From the NCBI RefSeq assembly GCF_024171995.1, contig NZ_JAMTCT010000026.1, positions 1 through 64,000 of the forward strand: DNA of 64,000 bases, given 5' to 3'. The notes under the pieces were generated by a model. It had not been told where the DNA came from. It saw only the letters and a list, made by a program, of their open reading frames with translations, and ran no database searches. This document shows, in pieces, positions 13,249 through 23,959 of this stretch; position 1 is the first letter of the stretch, and every line of letters begins with the position of its first letter. A program made the translations under genes and the position numbers. The DNA is from Promicromonospora umidemergens (GTDB taxonomy: Bacteria; Actinomycetota; Actinomycetes; Actinomycetales; Cellulomonadaceae).

Positions 13249-13451
13249 GACAGTTCCCCCTGCGTTGGTCGAGGCCGCGACGCCTCGGGCGGATGAAAAC
13301 GTAACGGCTGAACCGGTGCCGTTGGCACGTTTGTCCATGATTTCGGCGCGATTTCACCCGAGCGATTGCGAGATTCGGAATCGCTCTTGTGGGACAACCT
13401 GGACATGCGCTGTGCTCTGCGAGTCCGTCTGGTCCGATCCTGGAGCTCACC

Positions 13452-16400
13452 GTGCTCGTAGTTTCGTCCGCGCGTCATACCTGGCTGCGTTTGCCCGTAG
13501 CTGCTTCTGCGACGGTGGCGCTGGTCGCCACCATGCTGGTGTCCGCGCCGCCCGCGACCGCGGACGTCGATGCCGGAGCCACTGCTGTCGAGAAGGTGGA
13601 TCCCACGACGGGGGCGCCGGTCTCGGAGAACGAGGGCGTGTGGGACACGGTCGCCGGCTGGTTCACCGACGACGCCCCGGATCTGGAGCCCGCTCCTAGC
13701 CGTGGCGACCTGCCCGAGCTCCAGGCCGAGTCCTGGGACGTCGAGCCTGCGACCGCCGACGCCGCGCCCGCGGTCGACGCCCCGGCGGCGGTGCACGCTA
13801 CCGGTGCGGACCTGGTCTGGGAGCCGGGCGGGGATGGTGAGGTCTCCGAGTTCCAGGTTCACCGGTCGGTGACCCCGGGCTTCGAGCCCGGCCCGTCCAC
13901 GATGGTCGCCCCGGTCGATCCCGGTACGACGTCGTTCACCGACACGTCGATCTTGCCGGTCGCCTCGACCGGTGACGGCGCCGGTGAGCCGCGTGAGGTC
14001 TACTACGAGATCGTCACCAAGGGTCAGGACGGCACGCTGACCTCGTCGGACGAGCGGGCCGCGACGGTGCCGACGGCAGGTCTGGTCACCACGGCCGACC
14101 AGACCAGCGTTGATGGGGACTCGCCTGGGGTGTACGTCCCGGGGCTCCCGTCGCGGTTGGGCGTGGGCGAGGCGACGACGGTCGACGTCGTGGTGGCGAA
14201 CACTACCGACACCGCCTGGACCGCCGCCGACACCGTGGTCTCCCACGAGTGGACCCTGCCCGGACAGGACCCGGACGGCACCGGCCTGGTGACGGTGCCG
14301 CTGCCGAGCGACCTGGCGCCGGGGGAGTCCGTGACGCTGCCCGTCGAGGTGACCGCTCCGGACTCGATCCGGACGAACGCCGTGGCGGGGTACCGGTTGG
14401 TGTGGGGTGTGCAGGCCACCACCCCCGCCGCGGCCGCTGAGATGGGAGCCTCGACCAAGGCGGTCAAGGAGACCACCGGCACAGCCGAAGGCGTATCGGT
14501 GCGAGCCGTGGAGGCCGGAGTCGCAGCGATCGACCTGGTCGACCTCCTGGCACCCGTGGTGCTGGAGCTGGTGATCGACGAGCCCACGTCCAGCCTCCTG
14601 GGTGCGGAGGACTTCTACTCCTACAGCGGGAAGAACACCGGCGCCGGCTCAGCAGTGCTGACGAACCTGGCGCTGGGTAACGCGACGTGGAACTACGCCC
14701 CGATCTCCAATCCCGGACGTGGCTTTACCGCGTTCACCAGCTTCTCGTACAACTCGATGGACGCCGCGGACACGGGTATGGGGGTGGGCTGGTCGGCACA
14801 GATCGCCGCGCCCCAGCGGCTGGGCCTGCCTCTGGCGTACGACAAGATCCTGGCACCGGACGAGGTGTTCCTCTCCGACGGCGACGGCACCGGCCACGCC
14901 TTCCTGTGGAACGACGAGACCGACGAGTACGAATCCCCGCCGGGAGTGAACCTCCAGCTCTCCTACAAGCCCGGGAGCGACTGCCACCTGCTGGGCGATC
15001 TGCTGGGTGACCCGGCCGACGACGCGTGGACGCTGCTGCGCCCCGACGGGACCCGGTTCATCTTTGACTGCGAGGGGTACGTCCGTCAGGCGGTCGACCG
15101 CAACGGCAACACCCAGACGTTCCACTACATCGAGCGTGGTGGGCTGCTCGGCATCGGCTCCAAGACCCTGCTGGTGAAGGTGACCGACCCGGATGGTCGG
15201 GAGGTCCTCACGGTGGACTACTACGAGGCCGGTGAGGCGTACGAGTACGTCAACGCTTCCGGTGACCTGGTCACCGGGTCGCGGTTGTCGGATCTGGAGA
15301 TCATCGACCACCTCAAGTCCGTCACGGACGTCTCCGGCCGCACGGTCAAGATCGTGTATGACCGGGACGGGTTGCTGCGCCGCATGGTCGACGGCGACGG
15401 CGCGACCGACGGTGCCGGTGAATCCATCGCCAAGACGTTCCAGTTCGCGTACGACCACGACACCCTTCTCGGCGAGGCACGCCTGGTGGGCGTCACCGAC
15501 CCGCGCGGCGGAGCGACGGAGATCGACTACGCGGTCCCTGGTGAGCCGGACACTGGCTACGGGGAGCGGTGGCAGGTTGAACGCATCACGGACCGGCTCG
15601 ACCACACCACGCAGTTCGACTACTGGTGGGACGACCGCGAGGACGCCCCCGACCGGGTGGGTGCCCGGGTCACGGACGCCAGCGGGAACGCGGCGGAGTA
15701 TGTGCACGATCTCAAGGGCCGGGCCCTCGAGGTTACGAACGCATTGGACCAGACCACGACCCTGACGTGGGACCCGAACAACAACGTCTCGCGCCTGACC
15801 GAGGCCAACGGCGCCGTCGCGGCCTTCTGTTATGACCCGAAGACCGGATACCCGATCTGGGAACGAGACCCGGTCCAGAACGCCGCCCACGGGGTCCCCG
15901 CCGTCGAGGACTGCCAGCCCGGGCAGGACCCGACCACGGCGCCCGAGGGTGCGCAGGTGGTGGAGTACCAGACCTGGGAGGACGGGTACGTCGCCGACGC
16001 CTGGCGCACCACCAGCCCGGCGGGCCGGTCGTACGAGTTCGGGATCGATGCGGCGGGGAACCTGCTTTCGGTGACCGACCCCAAGGGCGTCGCTACTGCG
16101 ACGGAGGGTGACTACACGACGTCGTACACCTACGACTCCCACGGGCAGATGCTCACCCTGACCGACCCGAACGGCAACACCACCCGGTACCGGGACTACA
16201 CGCCGGTGGGTTACCCGGTCACCGAGGAGGACGCCGCCGGCGGGATCATCACGACCGAGTACGACGAGCGGGGGCAGGTCACTCGGGTCCTGGCACCTGA
16301 GGACGCCGATGGTGACCGCGCCGAGACCACGCAGACCTATGACGTGTTCGGCCGGCCGGTCTCCGGTACCGCTCTGAAGGATGCCGCCTCTGGCGAGACG

Positions 16401-19400
16401 ATCTCCACCGGGACGATCGTGTACGACCCGAACGACAACATCATCCGTTCGACGGCGCCGAACGGTGCGGTGAGCACCGCGACCTTCGACGGTGCCGACC
16501 AGGTCGTGGCCGCGTCCGCACCGCGGGACGAGGACGCGGACTCGGCCGACGGCCTCGGGCCTGAGCGGGTCACGACCTACACGTACGACCCGGTGGGGAA
16601 ACTGGTCACCACGACCGAGCCGAACGGCACGCTGACCGACGGTGACGCGTCGGACTACGTGACCCGGAACGCGTACGACGACATCTACCAGCTGGTCGCG
16701 GTCCAGAACGCGCTTGGCAGCCGGATCGAGTACGACTACGACGAGGTCGGCAACGTCATCGAGACCCGCGACCCGAAGACGGTCGCGTCGGCCGACCCGG
16801 ACGACTTCACCACCCGGGTGGAGTACGACCTGAACTATCAGCCGGTCGCCACGACCGACGCCGCGGGCACCCGCACGACGTCCACGTATGACGCCGATGG
16901 GCTGGTAGCCAGCTCGACCGACGCGCTCGGGCACACCAGCTATATGACCTACGACGAGCGTGGCGCGACCGTGGAGACCCGCACCCCCTACACCGGGAGC
17001 GGTGAGGCGGCGACGTACCGGACCACGCGGTTCGAGTACGACCAGGTCGGCAACCAGACGCGCGTGGTCACCCCCCGGGGCGTGGCCACCAGCAACCCGG
17101 ACGACTTCGCCGCCCGGACGGCCTACGACGTGCTGAACCGGCCCGTGCGCCAGTACCAGCCCTACGACCCCGCCGACGACCGGTACAACGACCCGGACGT
17201 GTATACCGAGACCCGGTACGACGGCGCCGGGAACGTGGTCGCCACGAGCCTGCCTGCCTCGGACGGGCAGGAGATACGGCCCACCACGAGGTTCGAGTAC
17301 TTCGAGACCGGGTGGATCAAGTCCTCCCGCGACCCGCACGGCATCACGACCGCCTACGACTACAACGACCTGGGCCAGCAGACCGCTCGGACGCTGACCA
17401 GCGCGTCCGGGGATGCCACCCGGACGATGACCTGGGGTTACCACCCCGACGGCAAGCAGGCCTCGATGGCCGACGACGGCGTCCCGGTCGGTCGGAACGT
17501 CACCCTGGTCGACAACTCCGACGCCCCGCACACCACCGCGGTCGGTGACTGGCAGACCGGCTCGGCCGACGGGCAGCAGGGCATCGACCACACCACCCAC
17601 CCGGCCGTGCCCGAGCCGGAAGATCCTGGTGAGTGCGACCCGGAGACGCCGGAGTGCGGGGACCCGGTTGAGTGTGACCCGGAGACGACCGAGTGCGAAG
17701 GCGAAAACCCGGCCGAACCTGTTGAGGACGAGCAAGGGTCGTTCACGTGGCAGGTCGACGTGCCGGCCGACGGCACCTACGACGTGTACGTCACTTTCCC
17801 GCAGGTGGCGGACGCCGCCACGGACGCGCAGTACACCCTGATCCACGGCGACCCCGGCGCCGCCGAGGGCTCCCCGGACGCGGAGGTCACCGAACCGGCG
17901 GTGGTGATCGACCAGACGCAGTCTGCCGGTACCTGGCAGCAGGCCGGAACCGTCGAGCTGACGAAGGGCGAGGCGACCCGCCTGGCGCTGGCGGTCTCGG
18001 CGACCGGGGTAGTGGTCGCTGACGCGGTCAAGATCGTGCGGGACAACTCCGCCGACGAGGATGCGCAGCAGAAGACGTTCACGTATTCCTATGACGCGAA
18101 CGGCGCGATGACCGGCATCGCCGACGACTCGATCGGCGCGGCCGTGCCGTCGTACGAGATGGCCTACGACCAGCTCGGCCAGATCGCCTCGGTGACCGAG
18201 CACCCCGCCGGTGGCCCGGTGACCACGACCTACGACTACGACGTCAACGGGCTGCCCGTCGAGGTGGCTCACCCCGACCAGAGTTCGCAGTACTCCTACG
18301 ATCTGCGCAACCTGGTCGAGACGGTCACGGTGACGGACGCGGTCGGGCAGAACGCCGGCCAGGCGCTGACCACCACCTACGCCCACGACACCCGCGGGAT
18401 GACCGCCACTCAGACCAAGGGCAACGGGAACGTGGTGTCCTACGGGTACAACCCCGACGGGTCCCTGGTCTCGTTGCGTGAGGAGAACTCCGCCGGGACG
18501 CTGGTCGCCTCCCATGAGTACGCGTACGACCGCAACGGCAACCAGGTCACCGACGCGGGCGTCAAGCAGGACGCGGACGACCCGGGCGCGTACCTGAATT
18601 CGACCATCGAGTACTCCTATGACCCGGCCGAGCGGATCGCGGCGAAGGTCAAGTCCGGGCACGCGGCGAGCAGCGAGTCCTACGTCCACGACGCGAACGC
18701 GAACGTCGTGGAGCAAGTCCTCGCCGGCGAGAGCACGACCTACGCGTACGACCGTAACCGTATGCAGTCGGCGACCACCGTCGGGCAGACGACGGAGCCG
18801 GGCCGGGTGTCGTTCAGCTACGACCCGTTCGGCAGGCAGGTCGCTGCTCGCGCGGACGGTGACGTGATCTCCCGTACCGGCTATGACGGGTTCGACCACG
18901 TGGTCCGGTCCGAGCAGCCGGGCGCGGACGGGGAGCTGCAGGCCACGACCTACGCGTACGACCCGCTGGACCGCACCACCTCCCAGTCCACGGGCGGGGT
19001 GACCACGGACTTCACCTACCTCGGGCTGTCCGGCACGGTGCTGACCGAAGACGTGGCCGGGCAGCTGGCCAAGTCCTACCAGTACTCCCCGTGGGGAAGT
19101 CGCCTGTCGCAGGTCACCCATCCTGGCGCCAACAACGGCGGTGACGCTGGGGAAGCCCAGCCGGTCGGGACGGTGTACTACGGGTACAACGCCCGTGGTG
19201 ACGTGGAGACCCTGACCGATGAGCAGGGTCAGGCGGTCGCGACGTACGGGTATACCGCCTACGGCAAGGCCGACGCTTCGGAGTTCACGGGTCTGGACAA
19301 GCCGGGTACGGATCAGGACGGCGACCCGGAGTTCGGGACCAGCACGTTCAACGCGTATCGGTACTCCGGGATGCGTTGGCAGGCGGGGTCGGGCAGCTAT

Positions 19401-20789
19401 GACATGGGGTTCCGTGACTACAGCCCGGGCCTGAACCGGTTCACGACCCGGGACACGTACAACGGTGCCCTGGCTGACCAGAGCCTCGGCTCGGATCCCT
19501 ACACCGGCAACCGGTACGCGTTCGGTGGCGGCAACCCGATCAGCAATGTCGATCTGGACGGGCATGAGCCGCGTGCTTGGCACGAGGAAGGTGTCGGGTT
19601 CAGCGATCTGAATCTTGATACCGAGAATCGTGAGCACGATGGTGCGCCGACCGTGCTCGGCAAGAAGGACGGGACCACCCCGCGGCCTGCTGACGGGCCT
19701 TCGCAGGCTGAGGTGGCTGACGCGCAAGCCACCCTGGACAAGTCCGTGACCGATGTCGCTCTGGATCTGGGTTGGGATCTGCTCAAGGACTTCGTCGGTT
19801 ACAACGACCTGATGGGGTGCTTGGACTCCGATGTGATGTCCTGCCTCACTCTTGCTGCGGGGATCACTCCGTGGGGTAAGGGCCTGAAGGCGATCAAGGC
19901 GCTCTACCGAATCGTCGATGGCGCAATCGACTTCTACCGTCAGCAGAAAGCCGCCCGCAAGGTCATCGAAGCGGCGGGTGCGGCCTGTAGGACACCGAAC
20001 AGCTTTGTGCCTGGGACGCTGGTGCTGCTTGCGGACGGGACCCGGAAGCCGATCGAAGATGTCGAGATCGGCGATGTCGTGATGGCGGCCAGCGAAGAGA
20101 CCGGTGAAGTTACCGACGGTCGTGCCGTCACGGCGCTGATCACCGGCGATGGTGAGAAGACTCTTGTGACGGTCACCGTGGCCGGCGCGGATGGTGATGA
20201 GCAGAGCATTGTCGCGACCGACGAGCACCCGTTCTGGTTGCCTGCCCAGACGAAGTGGGTAAACGCGATCGACCTCGTCGCAGGTGACTGGCTCCAGACC
20301 AGCGCCGGCACCTGGGTTCAGGTCACCGCACTCGACGTCGAGGTCCGACCAGCGGTCGTACACAACCTCACCGTCGCGACCGACCACACGTACTACGTTC
20401 TGGCGGGGGCCACGCCGGTCCTGGTTCACAATTCGAACTGCTCCAGTAACGCCAAGATTCTTGGCGACAATCTCGTAGCTTCTGGAGTGACTCGGCCAGG
20501 AGAGACTGCTGCACATCACATTGTGGCGAGCACCTCGCCGAAGGCGGCAGCGGCACGACAGCAGCTTGCGAACTTCGGAATCGACATCAACGATGCGAGT
20601 AATGGCGTGTTCTTGCCGCGCGGGTCGGCATCGGTTAATCCATCTAATGCATCAGTACATTCGCGAATCCATACGAATGAATACTACGCCAATGTAAACG
20701 ACCTGATTGGCGGCGCGAGAAGTGCTAGTGAAGCCCGAGATGTTCTAGGCCATGTGCGAAGGCAGTTACAGGGCGGGTATTGGCCATAG
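13452..20789 (+). CDS. Secreted Rhs/YD-repeat polymorphic toxin with Hint and AHH nuclease domains
   Basis: A 2445-residue exported toxin delivery protein. In order: signal peptide (1-37, cleavage after ATA); fibronectin-III-like domain (about 110-185); NEW/CARDB-like domain (about 215-325); long YD-repeat shell (about 480-2000) interrupted by a golvesin-like domain (about 1345-1530) reached through an acidic linker rich in CDPET; Rhs core end (YRYSGMRWQAGSG, then RDYSPGLNRFTTRD, about 1975-2010); Hint autoprotease (about 2181-2330, starting SFVPGTLVLLADGTRKPIEDV and ending TYYVLAGATPVLVHNSN); and a 115-residue tip with the AHH nuclease motif (A2354-H-H) plus VHSRIHTNEYY. The GTG start at 13452 has GGAG 6 nt upstream. 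Base composition falls sharply after about 20430, where the tip begins, a sign of toxin-module exchange. Confidence 0.9.
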   Translation: MLVVSSARHTWLRLPVAASATVALVATMLVSAPPATADVDAGATAVEKVDPTTGAPVSENEGVWDTVAGWFTDDAPDLEPAPSRGDLPELQAESWDVEPATADAAPAVDAPAAVHATGADLVWEPGGDGEVSEFQVHRSVTPGFEPGPSTMVAPVDPGTTSFTDTSILPVASTGDGAGEPREVYYEIVTKGQDGTLTSSDERAATVPTAGLVTTADQTSVDGDSPGVYVPGLPSRLGVGEATTVDVVVANTTDTAWTAADTVVSHEWTLPGQDPDGTGLVTVPLPSDLAPGESVTLPVEVTAPDSIRTNAVAGYRLVWGVQATTPAAAAEMGASTKAVKETTGTAEGVSVRAVEAGVAAIDLVDLLAPVVLELVIDEPTSSLLGAEDFYSYSGKNTGAGSAVLTNLALGNATWNYAPISNPGRGFTAFTSFSYNSMDAADTGMGVGWSAQIAAPQRLGLPLAYDKILAPDEVFLSDGDGTGHAFLWNDETDEYESPPGVNLQLSYKPGSDCHLLGDLLGDPADDAWTLLRPDGTRFIFDCEGYVRQAVDRNGNTQTFHYIERGGLLGIGSKTLLVKVTDPDGREVLTVDYYEAGEAYEYVNASGDLVTGSRLSDLEIIDHLKSVTDVSGRTVKIVYDRDGLLRRMVDGDGATDGAGESIAKTFQFAYDHDTLLGEARLVGVTDPRGGATEIDYAVPGEPDTGYGERWQVERITDRLDHTTQFDYWWDDREDAPDRVGARVTDASGNAAEYVHDLKGRALEVTNALDQTTTLTWDPNNNVSRLTEANGAVAAFCYDPKTGYPIWERDPVQNAAHGVPAVEDCQPGQDPTTAPEGAQVVEYQTWEDGYVADAWRTTSPAGRSYEFGIDAAGNLLSVTDPKGVATATEGDYTTSYTYDSHGQMLTLTDPNGNTTRYRDYTPVGYPVTEEDAAGGIITTEYDERGQVTRVLAPEDADGDRAETTQTYDVFGRPVSGTALKDAASGETISTGTIVYDPNDNIIRSTAPNGAVSTATFDGADQVVAASAPRDEDADSADGLGPERVTTYTYDPVGKLVTTTEPNGTLTDGDASDYVTRNAYDDIYQLVAVQNALGSRIEYDYDEVGNVIETRDPKTVASADPDDFTTRVEYDLNYQPVATTDAAGTRTTSTYDADGLVASSTDALGHTSYMTYDERGATVETRTPYTGSGEAATYRTTRFEYDQVGNQTRVVTPRGVATSNPDDFAARTAYDVLNRPVRQYQPYDPADDRYNDPDVYTETRYDGAGNVVATSLPASDGQEIRPTTRFEYFETGWIKSSRDPHGITTAYDYNDLGQQTARTLTSASGDATRTMTWGYHPDGKQASMADDGVPVGRNVTLVDNSDAPHTTAVGDWQTGSADGQQGIDHTTHPAVPEPEDPGECDPETPECGDPVECDPETTECEGENPAEPVEDEQGSFTWQVDVPADGTYDVYVTFPQVADAATDAQYTLIHGDPGAAEGSPDAEVTEPAVVIDQTQSAGTWQQAGTVELTKGEATRLALAVSATGVVVADAVKIVRDNSADEDAQQKTFTYSYDANGAMTGIADDSIGAAVPSYEMAYDQLGQIASVTEHPAGGPVTTTYDYDVNGLPVEVAHPDQSSQYSYDLRNLVETVTVTDAVGQNAGQALTTTYAHDTRGMTATQTKGNGNVVSYGYNPDGSLVSLREENSAGTLVASHEYAYDRNGNQVTDAGVKQDADDPGAYLNSTIEYSYDPAERIAAKVKSGHAASSESYVHDANANVVEQVLAGESTTYAYDRNRMQSATTVGQTTEPGRVSFSYDPFGRQVAARADGDVISRTGYDGFDHVVRSEQPGADGELQATTYAYDPLDRTTSQSTGGVTTDFTYLGLSGTVLTEDVAGQLAKSYQYSPWGSRLSQVTHPGANNGGDAGEAQPVGTVYYGYNARGDVETLTDEQGQAVATYGYTAYGKADASEFTGLDKPGTDQDGDPEFGTSTFNAYRYSGMRWQAGSGSYDMGFRDYSPGLNRFTTRDTYNGALADQSLGSDPYTGNRYAFGGGNPISNVDLDGHEPRAWHEEGVGFSDLNLDTENREHDGAPTVLGKKDGTTPRPADGPSQAEVADAQATLDKSVTDVALDLGWDLLKDFVGYNDLMGCLDSDVMSCLTLAAGITPWGKGLKAIKALYRIVDGAIDFYRQQKAARKVIEAAGAACRTPNSFVPGTLVLLADGTRKPIEDVEIGDVVMAASEETGEVTDGRAVTALITGDGEKTLVTVTVAGADGDEQSIVATDEHPFWLPAQTKWVNAIDLVAGDWLQTSAGTWVQVTALDVEVRPAVVHNLTVATDHTYYVLAGATPVLVHNSNCSSNAKILGDNLVASGVTRPGETAAHHIVASTSPKAAAARQQLANFGIDINDASNGVFLPRGSASVNPSNASVHSRIHTNEYYANVNDLIGGARSASEARDVLGHVRRQLQGGYWP

Positions 20790-20883
20790 AGGAGGGTGTA
20801 GCCTGGCTGCAGTGCGGACGCGTACCTGCGAGCTGCTCTGCGCGACGGCGGTAGGAATCTTGAAGTGGGCCACGGAGGAAGCG

Positions 20884-21345
20884 ATGCGGCAGCCGATCGA
20901 CTCTGCGCTTAGCGTGGCGCAAGGCATTGTTGACCAGCTTGGATCGAGGCGAGGGTTTCCAACTGCTGAGCAAGTGATCTCGGTTGTCCACACCTTCGAG
21001 CGGATTGAGTTCGACGTCCCGAGCAGTGCTGACTCCGATGGATTCCTCTTTCAGTATGGCGAAGTGAACTGGTTTTCCGAGCCGGTGTTCGCGGTGGGAT
21101 TCGTGCGCCAGATGGAGCTCGTCGACGATGAGGAGGATCACGAGGGGTACTCGCAGGTGCAGTTTGAATTTCGATACCGGGCTGATGCCGACCTGCGGTC
21201 GCTTGAAAGCCGTAGCTCCTGGTGGTTTCGTGACAGCGGAGCGCTGTTCGAAGAATGGATCGAATCGGTGAAACGTGATCCTATTTGGGGGGTAATTCGA
21301 GAGAAAATACCTCTCGAATTTGATGTCTCGCAGGAATTGCCCTGA
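20884..21345 (+). CDS. Candidate immunity protein for the AHH toxin
   Basis: A 153-residue acidic, cytoplasmic protein immediately downstream of the toxin tip, in the same lower-GC DNA. It begins MRQPIDSALSVAQGIVDQLG and has no signal peptide. I do not recognise its family. Position, orientation, size and composition are those of an immunity gene that protects the producer from its own nuclease. The ATG at 20884 has GGAGG about 6 nt upstream; the longer frame from 20752 overlaps the toxin gene and lacks a good ribosome binding site. Confidence 0.6.
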   Translation: MRQPIDSALSVAQGIVDQLGSRRGFPTAEQVISVVHTFERIEFDVPSSADSDGFLFQYGEVNWFSEPVFAVGFVRQMELVDDEEDHEGYSQVQFEFRYRADADLRSLESRSSWWFRDSGALFEEWIESVKRDPIWGVIREKIPLEFDVSQELP

Positions 21346-21429
21346 ATCTGAACGTTCAATTGTGCATCTTCTGTGCGCGGATCTGTGACGCTGGGCGGGA
21401 TGTCGATATTAGAGACGCTTCTATGTTCG

Positions 21430-22512
21430 TCAAGCTGGGACGGCGAGGGCGTTTGTCCTGGTCAGTAGCTTGAAGATCTTGCGGGTGAGGTAGCGCTTGA
21501 GCTGGCGTCGGATCTCGCGGGTGGTCTTGCCCTCGGTAGTGCGTTTCTGCAGGTAGTTGCGGGTTTCGTCGTGGGTGCGCATGCGGACGAGAGTCGCGAT
21601 GTGCAGTGCCTTGTTCAGTCGTCGGTCGCCGCCGCGGTCGAGACGGTGATGGTCGCTGCGGTTGCCAGAGGAGGCTGGGATCGGTGCGGTGCCGGCCAGG
21701 CGAGCGAACGCGGCTTCGGAGCGGACCCTGCCGGGGTGGGACCAGGCGGCCAGGATCACGGCGGCCGTGTAGGGGCCGATCCCTGGTTCCTCGAGCAGGT
21801 CAGGGGCGTGCTCGGTGACCAGGGTCCGCAGGGTGGTGTTGTTCTCTTTGAGCTGGGTGTCGAGCTCGCAGATGCGGGCCGCCAGGCGCACCGCCTCGGC
21901 GCGGGCGATCTGCTGGTCCAGGGCCTCCTCGCGGGCCCGCCAGGCTTTGACCGTCTTGATCTGAACGGTGGTGAGCGGGCCGCGGGCGTCGATGCCGAGG
22001 TCGTGAGTGCGCAGCAGCCCGGTCAGGGCGTTGACCTGGACTGTTCGGTCGCGAGAGAGGCGGTCGCGGGCGGTGGTCAGGACCTGCAGAGCGCCGGCGA
22101 CCTGCCCGGCCCGGTGGTCACGCAGCTCGTCGGCGGGTAGCCCGAGCACGTCGCGGGCAGCGCGGTCCGCGTCCAGGGCGTCGGTCTTGGCCCGGCCCTT
22201 GCCCCGCACCGGTGTCAACGCCTCGACGACCCGATATCCGACGTTGGCGAGGTGGGCTGCGGCCAGGCGTCCGTAGGAGCCGGTGCCCTCCATGCTGATC
22301 AGCACCGCTTGCGGTGTGTCGACCGTCCGCCGTGCGATCCATGACGTGGCCCGGGCCAGGCCGGTCTGTGTGGTTGGGAACGTCTGCGCGTCGACGTGCG
22401 CTCCGGTCGTCGTCTCGATGATCGAGTACATGTGCTGGCGGGCGTGGGTGTCGACCCCGACGACGAAGAGGTAGGTCTGAGCGACGGTCGGGACTTCTGC
22501 GAGTATGGGCAC
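21430..22512 (-). CDS. IS110-family transposase (DEDD RuvC-like plus Tnp_20)
   Basis: A 360-residue recombinase. The N-terminal RuvC-like domain shows the acidic set in VVGVDTHARQH, MEGTGSYG and KTDALDADRAA. A central coiled coil (about 175-235) is followed by the Transposase_20 domain, with EEPGIGPYTAAVILAAW and the serine-containing PIPASSGNRSDHHRLDRGG segment expected of the nucleophile region. All key motifs are present and there is no interruption, so it looks functional. Starts with GTG at 22512. Confidence 0.92.
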   Translation of the reverse strand: MPILAEVPTVAQTYLFVVGVDTHARQHMYSIIETTTGAHVDAQTFPTTQTGLARATSWIARRTVDTPQAVLISMEGTGSYGRLAAAHLANVGYRVVEALTPVRGKGRAKTDALDADRAARDVLGLPADELRDHRAGQVAGALQVLTTARDRLSRDRTVQVNALTGLLRTHDLGIDARGPLTTVQIKTVKAWRAREEALDQQIARAEAVRLAARICELDTQLKENNTTLRTLVTEHAPDLLEEPGIGPYTAAVILAAWSHPGRVRSEAAFARLAGTAPIPASSGNRSDHHRLDRGGDRRLNKALHIATLVRMRTHDETRNYLQKRTTEGKTTREIRRQLKRYLTRKIFKLLTRTNALAVPA

Positions 22513-22688
22513 TGCGATGTTCTCCCTTGCCTGGACGGACGTCGTTGCCGGCGTCGGCCTGGGTAGGAGTCACCGCGGGACATCACTGTCATGGGCCACG
22601 ACCCGCGAAGGTCGGACATGCTTCTGATCAGGTCATCGAGGTGGGCCAGGCTGACGTCGGCTGCCCCGGCACGCGGACGAGTCTCTAA
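22513..22688 (-). ncRNA. Candidate bridge RNA region of the IS110 element
   Basis: The 176-nt non-coding stretch between the left terminal repeat and the transposase start matches the size and place of bridge RNAs described for IS110-group elements, which guide the recombinase to donor and target DNA. On the minus strand it holds a short stem, GACC-TTCGCG-GGTC (about 22612-22599), enclosed by a larger pairing of AGCCTGG (near 22650) with CCAGGC (near 22560). The loop sequences that would pair with target and donor have not been resolved. Confidence 0.45.
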
Positions 22689-22809
22689 CAGGAGCACACC
22701 GGGACGAGCTCGGTGGCCATGCGTTATTCGAGTCACGCGCGCAGGGCAGAACGACGCCAGCCTGACCAGCCAGTCCCAGACCAGCCACTCGAAAGACTGA
22801 CAGCGTTAT

Positions 22810-23375
22810 TCAGCCGGTCAGTCGGTAGCACTCGAGGTTGACGATCGCGTGGATGACCATTGGGAGTTCGGCCAGTCGCCCGCGGTAGCCGGTCGTGAGG
22901 ATCTTCCACTGCTTGAGCAGCCCGATCGCTCGTTCGACCGGGGCGCGGAAGCTCGCGACGGCGCGGTTGAACGCGACGTCCTGGGGTGGGCGGGGCGCGT
23001 CCTTCGGCTTCTTCAGCGGGGTCCAGTCGGTGTGCCGGGCGTAGGCGCTGTCGCCGAACACGGCCGGTTGCGGATTCTGGTCGGTGGCGGCGCGGATCTG
23101 GTAGCCCCAGCCGACCAGGTCCAGGGCCACCGAGTCGTGGCGCCGGCCGGGCACGGGGTCCGAGACGTCGGCCAGGGTCCCGTCGGGCCACGCTGCGACC
23201 TGCACGTTGAGCGCCTGCTTGCGGTGTTTCCCGTTGAAGTTCTCCTTCCCGGTCACGGTGCGGTTCCCGGTCGGGACCGGGGTCCCGTCGATCAGGACCA
23301 CGCCGGAGGCCAGCGCGTCGGCGAGCCGGGTGCGGTCCATCATCGTGACCATGCCCAGAATCGGCAGCAGGTAGT
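22810..23375 (-). pseudogene. IS5-type DDE transposase fragment (C-terminal part)
   Basis: About 188 residues of a DDE_Tnp_4 (HARBI1-like) transposase. The catalytic acids lie in VVLIDGTPVP, AVFGDSAYAR and APVERAIGLLKQW. The N-terminal HTH part is missing: reading upstream from about 23375 enters the AraC gene instead. It begins LPILGMVTMMDRTRLAD and ends LECYRLTG. The segment 22689-22809 beyond its stop contains GAATAACGC twice on the minus strand, probably an IS end. Too short to transpose by itself. Confidence 0.75.
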
Positions 23376-23376
23376 G

Positions 23377-23959
23377 CCTCGTGGGTGACCCAGGCGCGCA
23401 GTACTGCGACCAGCAGCACGTCGAAGAGGCGATCGAGCACGGCTGACTGGGCGGGCGCGTCCCGCACGATCTCGTCGGCCAGGATGCTGATGAACGGGGT
23501 GTCGAGGTCGGCGCCGCGCACGTGGATGACGGGCGGGAGCGCGCCGACGAGGCGCTGCGTGACCTCACCGCGCACCTGGTAGCAGCCCATGAGCATGACG
23601 GTCTGGCCGACGGGATCATTGCCCCACGCCCGCAGGCCGAGCGACCACTCGTCGTCGACGTCGCGGCCGTCCGGGCTCTCGACGCGCATGCCGGGCAGGA
23701 TCACGACGTCGGGCCTGGCGCCCAGCTCGTGCGACACCACGACCGGTGCGGGCCCTCGCGCGACCGCGACATCGCCCGCGTGCAGCTCGAGCGGGACACC
23801 CTCGTCTCCTTCGACCCAGGCTGAACCCCGCGCGACCGCGATCAGCCCCAGCGGCGACTCGTCGGCCAGCCGTACCGACCAGGGCGGCGTCAGGCTCGTG
23901 CGCAGCAGGTAGGCGTCGCGGCCGCGTGGGGCGTCGAGCAGGCGTGCGAGCGCATCCAT
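23377..23959 (-). pseudogene. AraC-family regulator truncated by an insertion sequence
   Basis: The first 195 residues look like the cupin sensor half of an AraC-family regulator: MDALARLLDAPRGRDAYLLR, WSVRLADESPLGLIAVARG, VVVILPGMRVE, DRLFDVLLVAVLRAWVT. The reading frame then passes into IS5-type sequence at about 23377, so the two C-terminal HTHs are lost. The protein could still dimerise but not bind DNA as usual. Its regulated partner, often a dehydrogenase or epimerase, is not next to it. Confidence 0.7.

Follow-up and report, generated by a model that had tools for sequence, protein, structure and literature searches.

The 64,000-nucleotide window analyzed here, from Promicromonospora umidemergens, carries an IS110-type transposase gene with a non-coding region on its 5' side, and the question raised by this locus is whether that region encodes a bridge RNA and, if so, which sequences the RNA would read. 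A sequence-only reading had placed such an RNA in positions 22513 to 22688, taken as the 176-nt 5' end of an element with matching 8-bp inward repeats at both edges. Our analysis indicates, with a probability of about 0.93, that the locus is an intact IS110-group element whose left end encodes a bridge RNA reading the element's own ends and the end of an IS5-like element.

The transposase gene and the boundaries of the element

The transposase gene is complete.

21430..22512, minus strand: DEDD recombinase (transposase), 360 aa, GTG start, assigned from Pfam, NCBIfam, PDB sequences and the conserved DEDD and Ser residues

The protein contains both domains of the IS110 group, the DEDD RuvC-like domain (Pfam DEDD_Tnp_IS110, 1.5e-15) and Transposase_20 with its conserved serine (4.1e-20), exceeds the cut-off of the NCBIfam IS110 equivalog (173.7 bits, cut-off 140) and, in a search of PDB sequences, resembles the transposases of IS621 (6.9e-10) and ISCro4. 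Residues D21, E75, D111, D114 and S281/S282 are invariant columns in an alignment of 11 sequences; the roles of the DEDD and Ser residues follow PMC11208158. The view that the element is intact and keeps all transposase motifs is borne out by this complete minus-strand gene. When the protein was searched against plasmids, each of the 1342 records returned had less than 60% identity.

The boundaries of the element were placed using the divergence of a second full copy in the same genome and homology to copies in Micropruina, and the extent of the left end using an alignment with 29 relatives.

21413..22801, minus strand: IS110-group insertion sequence, 1389 bp including the right-hand CT core
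22513..22801, minus strand: left non-coding end (LE), 289 nt
22802..22803, minus strand: left-hand CT core (target copy)
21413..21414, minus strand: right-hand CT core

The second full copy (C18, locus L040) is 98% identical to the window element and remains colinear with it, free of gaps, up to position 22812, i.e. 124 bp beyond 22688, before diverging. Positions 22801 down to 22689 belong to the element, and 22812-22802 (TGAATAACGCT) are a target shared by the two copies. The first base past the CT core (22803-22802) is 22801, which is the left end; on the right, the element ends at 21413. The same genome also holds a 77% copy (L041), in which left-end homology begins only at window position 22644, and a decayed copy (L042). 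The ends are homologous to those of 12 Micropruina copies, whose printed ends are identical: the left end reads GTGAGAG...CTGGCCTGGGGCTAGCTGG, preceded by GACAAG-CT; eleven of the copies have ATAGAAGCGT-CT^CGACCA at the right end, and the remaining one (L020) has CGATTA there. In the multi-copy sets with cleanly diverging flanks (G385, G400, G176, G256, G103, G020, G072, G636, Micropruina and the window element), 273-312 nt lie upstream of the gene, shared target bases counted. One further set, G269, gives 325-343 nt because the target repeat itself is common to its copies; G151 is too diverged to place an end, and in G198, G075, G246, G360 and the Myceligenerans pair homology continues into the flanks, so that these sets alone fix no end.

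Since the left end is at 22801, the non-coding end measures 289 nt, vs. 17 nt between the stop codon and the right end, which is the long upstream and short downstream layout of the IS110 group; as in that group, a CT core is present at both junctions and terminal inverted repeats are absent. The left edge at 22688 and the extent of 176 nt thus have to be corrected, and the true ends lying elsewhere, which the sequence-only reading had itself named as grounds against its claim, is what we observe for the left end.

A conserved RNA structure in the left end

The predicted RNA covers most of the LE.

22570..22786, minus strand: predicted bridge RNA (seekRNA) with a 5' stem-loop, a target-binding loop and a donor-binding loop, ends as modelled by cmsearch

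The full 289 nt are predicted to fold more stably than shuffled sequences (z = −3.66; none of 200 shuffles at least as stable). The 176 nt ending at 22688 are no more stable than shuffled sequence (z = +0.38, with 135 of 200 shuffles equalling or exceeding their stability), and we rejected them as a folding unit. Alignment of 30 left ends yielded a consensus in which a 5' stem-loop is followed by two further stems, the first of them long, each interrupted by an internal loop; 41 of its 58 pairs show compensatory change. Across the alignment, 92.4% of the paired cells can pair, compared to 81.6% in shuffled alignments (0 of 500 reaching the observed value) and 31-45% with slid partners, with the qualification that the structure was derived from the alignment on which it was tested, which favours it over the slid versions, and that the shuffle control ignores relatedness. 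The target and donor guides described below fall in the two internal loops. This is the architecture of a bridge RNA, i.e. a 5' stem-loop followed by two stem-loops with large internal loops, supported by covariation, as the sequence-only reading had anticipated.

The covariance-model search proposed in that reading was carried out with a model trained on 25 relatives, the window element excluded. The model recovered 22786-22570 at 151.2 bits (E = 1.7e-34), the sole match in the 64 kb at E <= 10. Among 37 further loci, none of them used in training but some close kin, the model found 31 at E = 1.1e-5 or better and missed L033, L036, L042, L085, L122 and L142. Its three matches in the whole genome all coincide with IS110 copies; the one on C48 is weak (50 bits). 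Rfam models gave nothing at the gathering threshold over the window and nothing up to E = 1 over 21300-22900, so an Rfam annotation of the RNA was rejected. The kind of RNA originally proposed is supported. Within 22513 to 22688 lie the donor loop and the guide for the right target, but that segment misses the stem-loop at the 5' end, the guide for the left target and the 5' arm of the stem that carries the target loop.

At one locus in Myceligenerans indicum (L008), a transposase 78% identical to that of the window accompanies a left end that scores only 59 bits and has no readable target loop; the guide RNA of this copy may be damaged.

Target guides and flanking sequences

Two segments of the target loop correspond to the DNA on either side of the element.

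22721..22729, minus strand: left target guide (LTG) GAATAACGC, identical to the left flank GAATAACGC (22811-22803) at 9 of 9 positions
22683..22688, minus strand: right target guide (RTG) TTAGAG, reverse complement of CT-CTAA (21414-21409), comprising 6 of the 8 bases of one arm of the inward match

Scored over seven positions, the RTG of the window element matches at six. Its LTG lies one nucleotide out of the commonest register, and the second core position of the LTG (A for T) is mismatched. The expectation that the loops would be readable against both flanks thus holds for this copy.

For comparison with relatives, 63 elements were inspected; 34 carried the left-end motif in place and were aligned, and the first test took the 28 that carried the right-end motif as well, 15 of them non-redundant. 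Because the end-finding motifs include CT on the left and C on the right, these letters do not count as independent evidence. When the 28 elements were scored in a fixed register, there was no LTG signal (own flank 3.39 vs. 3.44 for the flanks of other elements; 6249 of 10,000 permutations at or above the observed mean), and the RTG was significant (6.54 vs. 3.66 of 10; 0 of 10,000). The LTG misfit arises because the register differs by one nucleotide between elements; accordingly, two offsets were allowed in the later tests, for own and foreign flanks alike. Under this scoring, the LTG of the 28 elements matched on average 7.11 of 9 positions in the own flank vs. 3.72 in the flanks of others, and the RTG 5.50 of 7 vs. 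2.93; in the non-redundant 15, the values were 7.80 vs. 3.50 and 5.60 vs. 2.56, respectively, with the own flank strictly best in 13 of 15 (LTG) and 11 of 15 (RTG). The observed mean was reached by 0 of 20,000 permutations in each of these four cases, where the permutations treat related elements as exchangeable. A second set gave similar values (LTG, 7.69 vs. 3.62 in 13 elements; RTG, 6.00 vs. 3.03 in the 9 of these 13 in which it could be tested; 0 of 20,000 permutations each). These 13 came from 26 aligned hits, the remainder being members of the first set, near-copies or L008, which lacks a readable target loop; L014 had been among the 34 aligned elements without entering the first test. 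Junctions were placed by hand on the left side of L092, L027 and L028 and on the right side of L072.

The correspondence has exceptions among the relatives. An LTG match of at least 8 of 9 was found in 21 of the 28 elements, and a poor one (<= 4 of 9 with both registers allowed) in six, i.e. L089, L140, L130, L105 and L129 (1-2 positions) and L099 (4 positions); L092 in the second set also matched at 4 of 9. For L089 and L130, inspection by eye suggests that a one-base error in the assumed junction may account for the misfit. The RTG was poor (<= 4 of 7) in five of the 28 (L135, L105, L110, L129 and L099). With these exceptions, the target loop is complementary to both strands of the flanking target, as in a bridge RNA. 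A rough chance estimate, on which we do not rely, found the LTG 9-mer in 9 of 20,000 mononucleotide shuffles and both guides in none. Clustering of guides at 10 of 14 positions gave 20 clusters from 41 elements but put unlike targets together, and it was excluded from all counts.

Donor guides and a putative junction promoter

The second internal loop corresponds to the ends of the element itself.

22620..22625, minus strand: core of the left donor guide, AGAAGC, which recurs unchanged in the element's right end
22586..22591, minus strand: right donor guide TGACAG, reverse complement of CT-GTCA at the left end
21429..21433, minus strand: proposed −35 element TTGAC, overlapping the stop codon, of a promoter that would form only in the excised circle

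All 28 elements repeat their right-end 6-mer AGRAGN (four states) identically in the donor loop, and in all 28 the donor loop also holds the complement of the left-end base N in GTNAG (three states, one seen only in the window element), although these counts come from related sequences and are not independent events. Thus, the donor loop is complementary to the joined ends of its own element. Among the 28 right ends, any of the four bases (T, C, A, G) can follow the C of the right junction, the C itself being part of the end-finding motif, so the core in this clade may be less strict than a CT dinucleotide. Of the 28 right ends, 26 contain TTGAC, which is spaced 17-18 nt from the −10-like segment of the left end when the two are joined, with a −10 that is weak by sequence; a promoter rebuilt across the junction of right and left ends, following the IS621 pattern (PMC11208160), appears plausible.

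Together with what is known of IS621, these features suggest the following course. Excision as a circle would join the right end to the left end at the CT core and bring TTGAC next to the weak extended −10-like TGTCAGTCT, and the RNA would be transcribed from the promoter so formed. The transcript is predicted to fold into the 5' stem-loop and the two stem-loops with internal loops. Its donor loop would pair with the joined ends of the element itself and its target loop with an IS5-like terminal inverted repeat (TIR), the LTG with GAATAACGC and the RTG with the core CT plus CTAA, as judged by sequence complementarity. By analogy with IS621, strand exchange by the recombinase at the CT core would follow and leave the element inserted there.

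The target is the end of an IS5-like element

The flanks of the window element, read together, correspond to the terminus of another insertion sequence.

22802..22812, minus strand: left target TGAATAACGCT, TIR of an IS5-like element, found at three places in the genome and as the same TIR in relatives
21409..21412, minus strand: right target CTAA, the last TIR base C plus TAA, read as a 3-bp target duplication by comparison with IS5-like copies in relatives
22813..23373 (upper limit approximate), minus strand: 3' part of the IS5-like transposase gene whose end is the target
Target as read across both junctions: TGAATAACG-CT-CTAA

The frame at 22810-23619 matches DDE_Tnp_4 (3.8e-22) and scores 46 bits against the NCBIfam IS5 model, below its cut-off of 140; similarity to the IS5-like element of C18 (61-63% in protein) starts at residue 83 of this frame, and the window IS5-like copy has lost its other end. 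A 408-aa open frame (22733-23959, minus strand; no NCBIfam match) begins in an upstream stretch that looks unrelated and continues into the IS5-like remnant, suggesting a deletion of the 5' part of the IS5-like element. The three occurrences of TGAATAACGCT in the 6.6-Mb genome are the window, the C18 copy and the far end of the C18 IS5-like element, where the site is empty and followed by CCCAGG. The longer form TGAATARCGCTCTRA was found at 11 places in 4 of 150 genomes of the family, none of them the genome of the window (reversed control, 0). Nine of the 11 places adjoin an IS5-like transposase, and the other two (L167 and L171), near contig ends, share the terminal sequence. Both IS5-like ends could be read at six of the relatives' loci, and the flanking 3 bp, as we read them, were equal in five (TAA, TAA, TTA, TGA, TCA) and unequal in L166; in the C18 IS5-like element, they are unequal (TGG/TGA). 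The equal triplets are why we read the right target as the last TIR base plus a duplication, and the relatives' sites as the unoccupied form. The empty-site comparison that had been suggested as a check is thus available, both in relatives and at the far end of the C18 IS5-like element.

Another element with nearly the same guides (TCGAATAACGCTTG and TCTGTTAGAG) occurs in another genus (L072) and sits in TGAATAGCG-CT^CTAAG, also given as TGAATAGCGCT^CTAAG; beside it, neither an IS5-like transposase nor an inverted repeat of >= 12 nt was found. With two full copies in the genome, the choice of target is read from two insertions plus the one in this relative. The window also encodes on the plus strand a 2466-aa frame (13389-20789), which seems to resemble an RHS-repeat protein that carries a Hint-type segment and ends in an AHH-like C-terminus, followed by a 197-aa ORF (20752-21345, no Pfam match), a possible immunity partner.

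Alternative explanations

The boundaries originally proposed, 22688 and 21409 with 8-bp terminal inverted repeats and a 176-nt 5' end, draw their appeal from a match that does exist: GTCTCTAA (22681-22688) and TTAGAGAC (21409-21416) are perfectly complementary. On the minus strand, 22688-22681 reads TTAGAGAC, and the right junction (21416-21409) reads GT-CT-CTAA. However, the two genome copies have GTCTCT in common at this junction and then diverge, to AA in the window and GA in C18 (GT-CT-CTGA). The outer AA therefore belongs to the flank, and the match does not form a terminal repeat. Among the aligned relatives, the TTAGAG column agrees on average at 5.5 of 7 letters with the reverse complement of the element's own right flank, which is why TTAGAG is read as the right target guide. 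Judged by its sequence, then, the apparent inverted repeat is mostly predicted pairing between guide and target (TTAGAG, 22688-22683, with CTCTAA, 21414-21409), the two extra matching bases (AC/GT) being probably due to chance; the match stands as a perfect 8-nt complementarity and falls as a pair of element edges. Given also the homology of the genome copies up to 22812, the 273-312 nt in relatives, the contradicting Micropruina copies and the shuffle-like fold of the 176 nt, we consider these boundaries barely credible.

That the left end might be only a promoter or 5' leader, or flank carried along in a composite unit, with the guide matches as leftovers of IS5-end ancestry, is prompted by the shared stretch adjoining an IS5-like end in both genome copies. 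Yet the structure is retained in relatives whose targets are unrelated, with guide columns that vary along with the flank, and the donor guides covary with the ends in 28 of 28 elements alongside the covariation of the structure itself, which makes this account highly improbable. Membership in the IS1111 group, which, according to PMC11208160, has sub-terminal inverted repeats of 7-17 bp and a bridge RNA in the downstream end, deserves next to no weight. A short inverted repeat can be found, the longest inverted match within the terminal 60 nt being 8 nt (CTGGTCAG), but its arms lie unequally, 33 nt from the left end and 46 nt from the right, and the right arm is inside the gene. The long non-coding end and the RNA are upstream, with only 17 nt downstream of the stop codon, and the order of the guides, bottom-strand match followed by top-strand match, is that of the IS110 type (PMC11187229). 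We accordingly rejected this assignment on the upstream position of the RNA, the 17-nt downstream end and the unequal 8-nt match reaching into the gene. Targeting of TIRs would also fit IS1111, given that IS4321 and IS5075, said to be members of that group, reportedly insert into the TIRs of Tn21.

Targets of related elements

A Pfam search of flank pieces from 27 relatives' loci, each piece searched separately, found the transposase of another element at or near the site in 15. The domain is cut at the junction in five (ISL3 in L102, rve/IS481-like in L108 and L109, Mutator/IS256 in L089 and Mu-type/IS21-like in L077; IS21, IS256 and IS481 are the family names corresponding to these Pfam domains). 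At four loci (L092, L114, L115 and L116), an rve gene is at the site or within 69 bp of it; IS3-like genes lie near a TGAATCGCC^CCGGG-type site at L093, L121 and L029 (the last with its left end not resolved); an IS4/5-type gene is 116 bp from the site at L097; and another IS110 gene adjoins L099 and L110 and also lies to the left of L121. In the flank pieces of the other 12 (L074, L096, L098, L100, L103, L105, L111, L113, L117, L088, L163 and L028), no transposase was found; among these, L074 and L098 have the TGAATCGCC^CCGGG-type site too, and L103, with no Pfam match, reads HWYN^HDRLHSS. By eye, L015, L145, L150 and L157 are in short repeats. A single Micropruina glycogenica chromosome carries twelve copies of one IS110 element (L015-L026) in TCTCGACAAG-CT^CGACCA-like sites, with L020 differing on the right.

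The loci and pieces are not a random sample and come with no background rate, so a preference of the whole clade is a lead rather than a result. As a tentative proposal, to which we give somewhat less than even odds, the bridge RNAs of this actinobacterial IS110 clade would be repeatedly aimed at other transposable elements, at terminal repeats or transposase codons of IS3, IS5, IS21, IS256, IS481-like, ISL3 and other IS110 elements; such elements would be RNA-guided parasites that land in, and often inactivate, competitors, with guide change driving target change.

Relation to known elements and implications

The window element resembles IS621 of Escherichia coli, as described in PMC11208160 and PMC11208158, in having an RNA encoded in the left end upstream of the recombinase, with a 5' stem-loop and internal loops for target and donor, in the LTG/RTG and LDG/RDG arrangement, the CT core and the DEDD plus Ser recombinase; the putative junction promoter would be a further parallel. 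It differs in the size of the LE (289 nt vs. an IS621 RNA of ~177 nt) and of the protein (360 aa vs. a chain of 328 aa), in an RTG of at least 6 nt and in its target, an IS5-like TIR rather than a REP element. ISEc21, an IS110-type element described with a seekRNA in PMC11187229, likewise has an upstream non-coding region and targets another insertion sequence; the window transposase falls in the 345-385 aa class of the ISEc21 cluster, and the bottom-strand match lies 5' of the top-strand match in both. Whereas ISEc21 targets codons of the IS3-family DDE domain, so that part of the wider pattern is already in print (PMC11187229), the window element targets the terminal repeat and target duplication of an IS5-like element.

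Insertion into inverted repeats of another element is also shared with IS1383, which reportedly inserts into those of IS1384, and with IS4321/IS5075, the latter reportedly of the IS1111 group; these elements are cited in the papers on IS110 and IS1111. No title or abstract start among the literature matches listed described an IS110 clade aimed at other insertion sequences, which is a weak negative.

The mechanism itself is already known; in this copy, the guide sequences can be read and checked. The locus provides a readable natural set of target and donor guides for an actinobacterial IS110 element, accompanied by a second copy, a relative in another genus with nearly the same guides and unoccupied sites in relatives. 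It also makes clear that what looks like a terminal inverted repeat in an IS110 element can be complementarity between guide and target, a trap in annotating IS110 ends. If the wider pattern is true, the specialization of RNA-guided insertion sequences on other mobile elements would become a testable idea.
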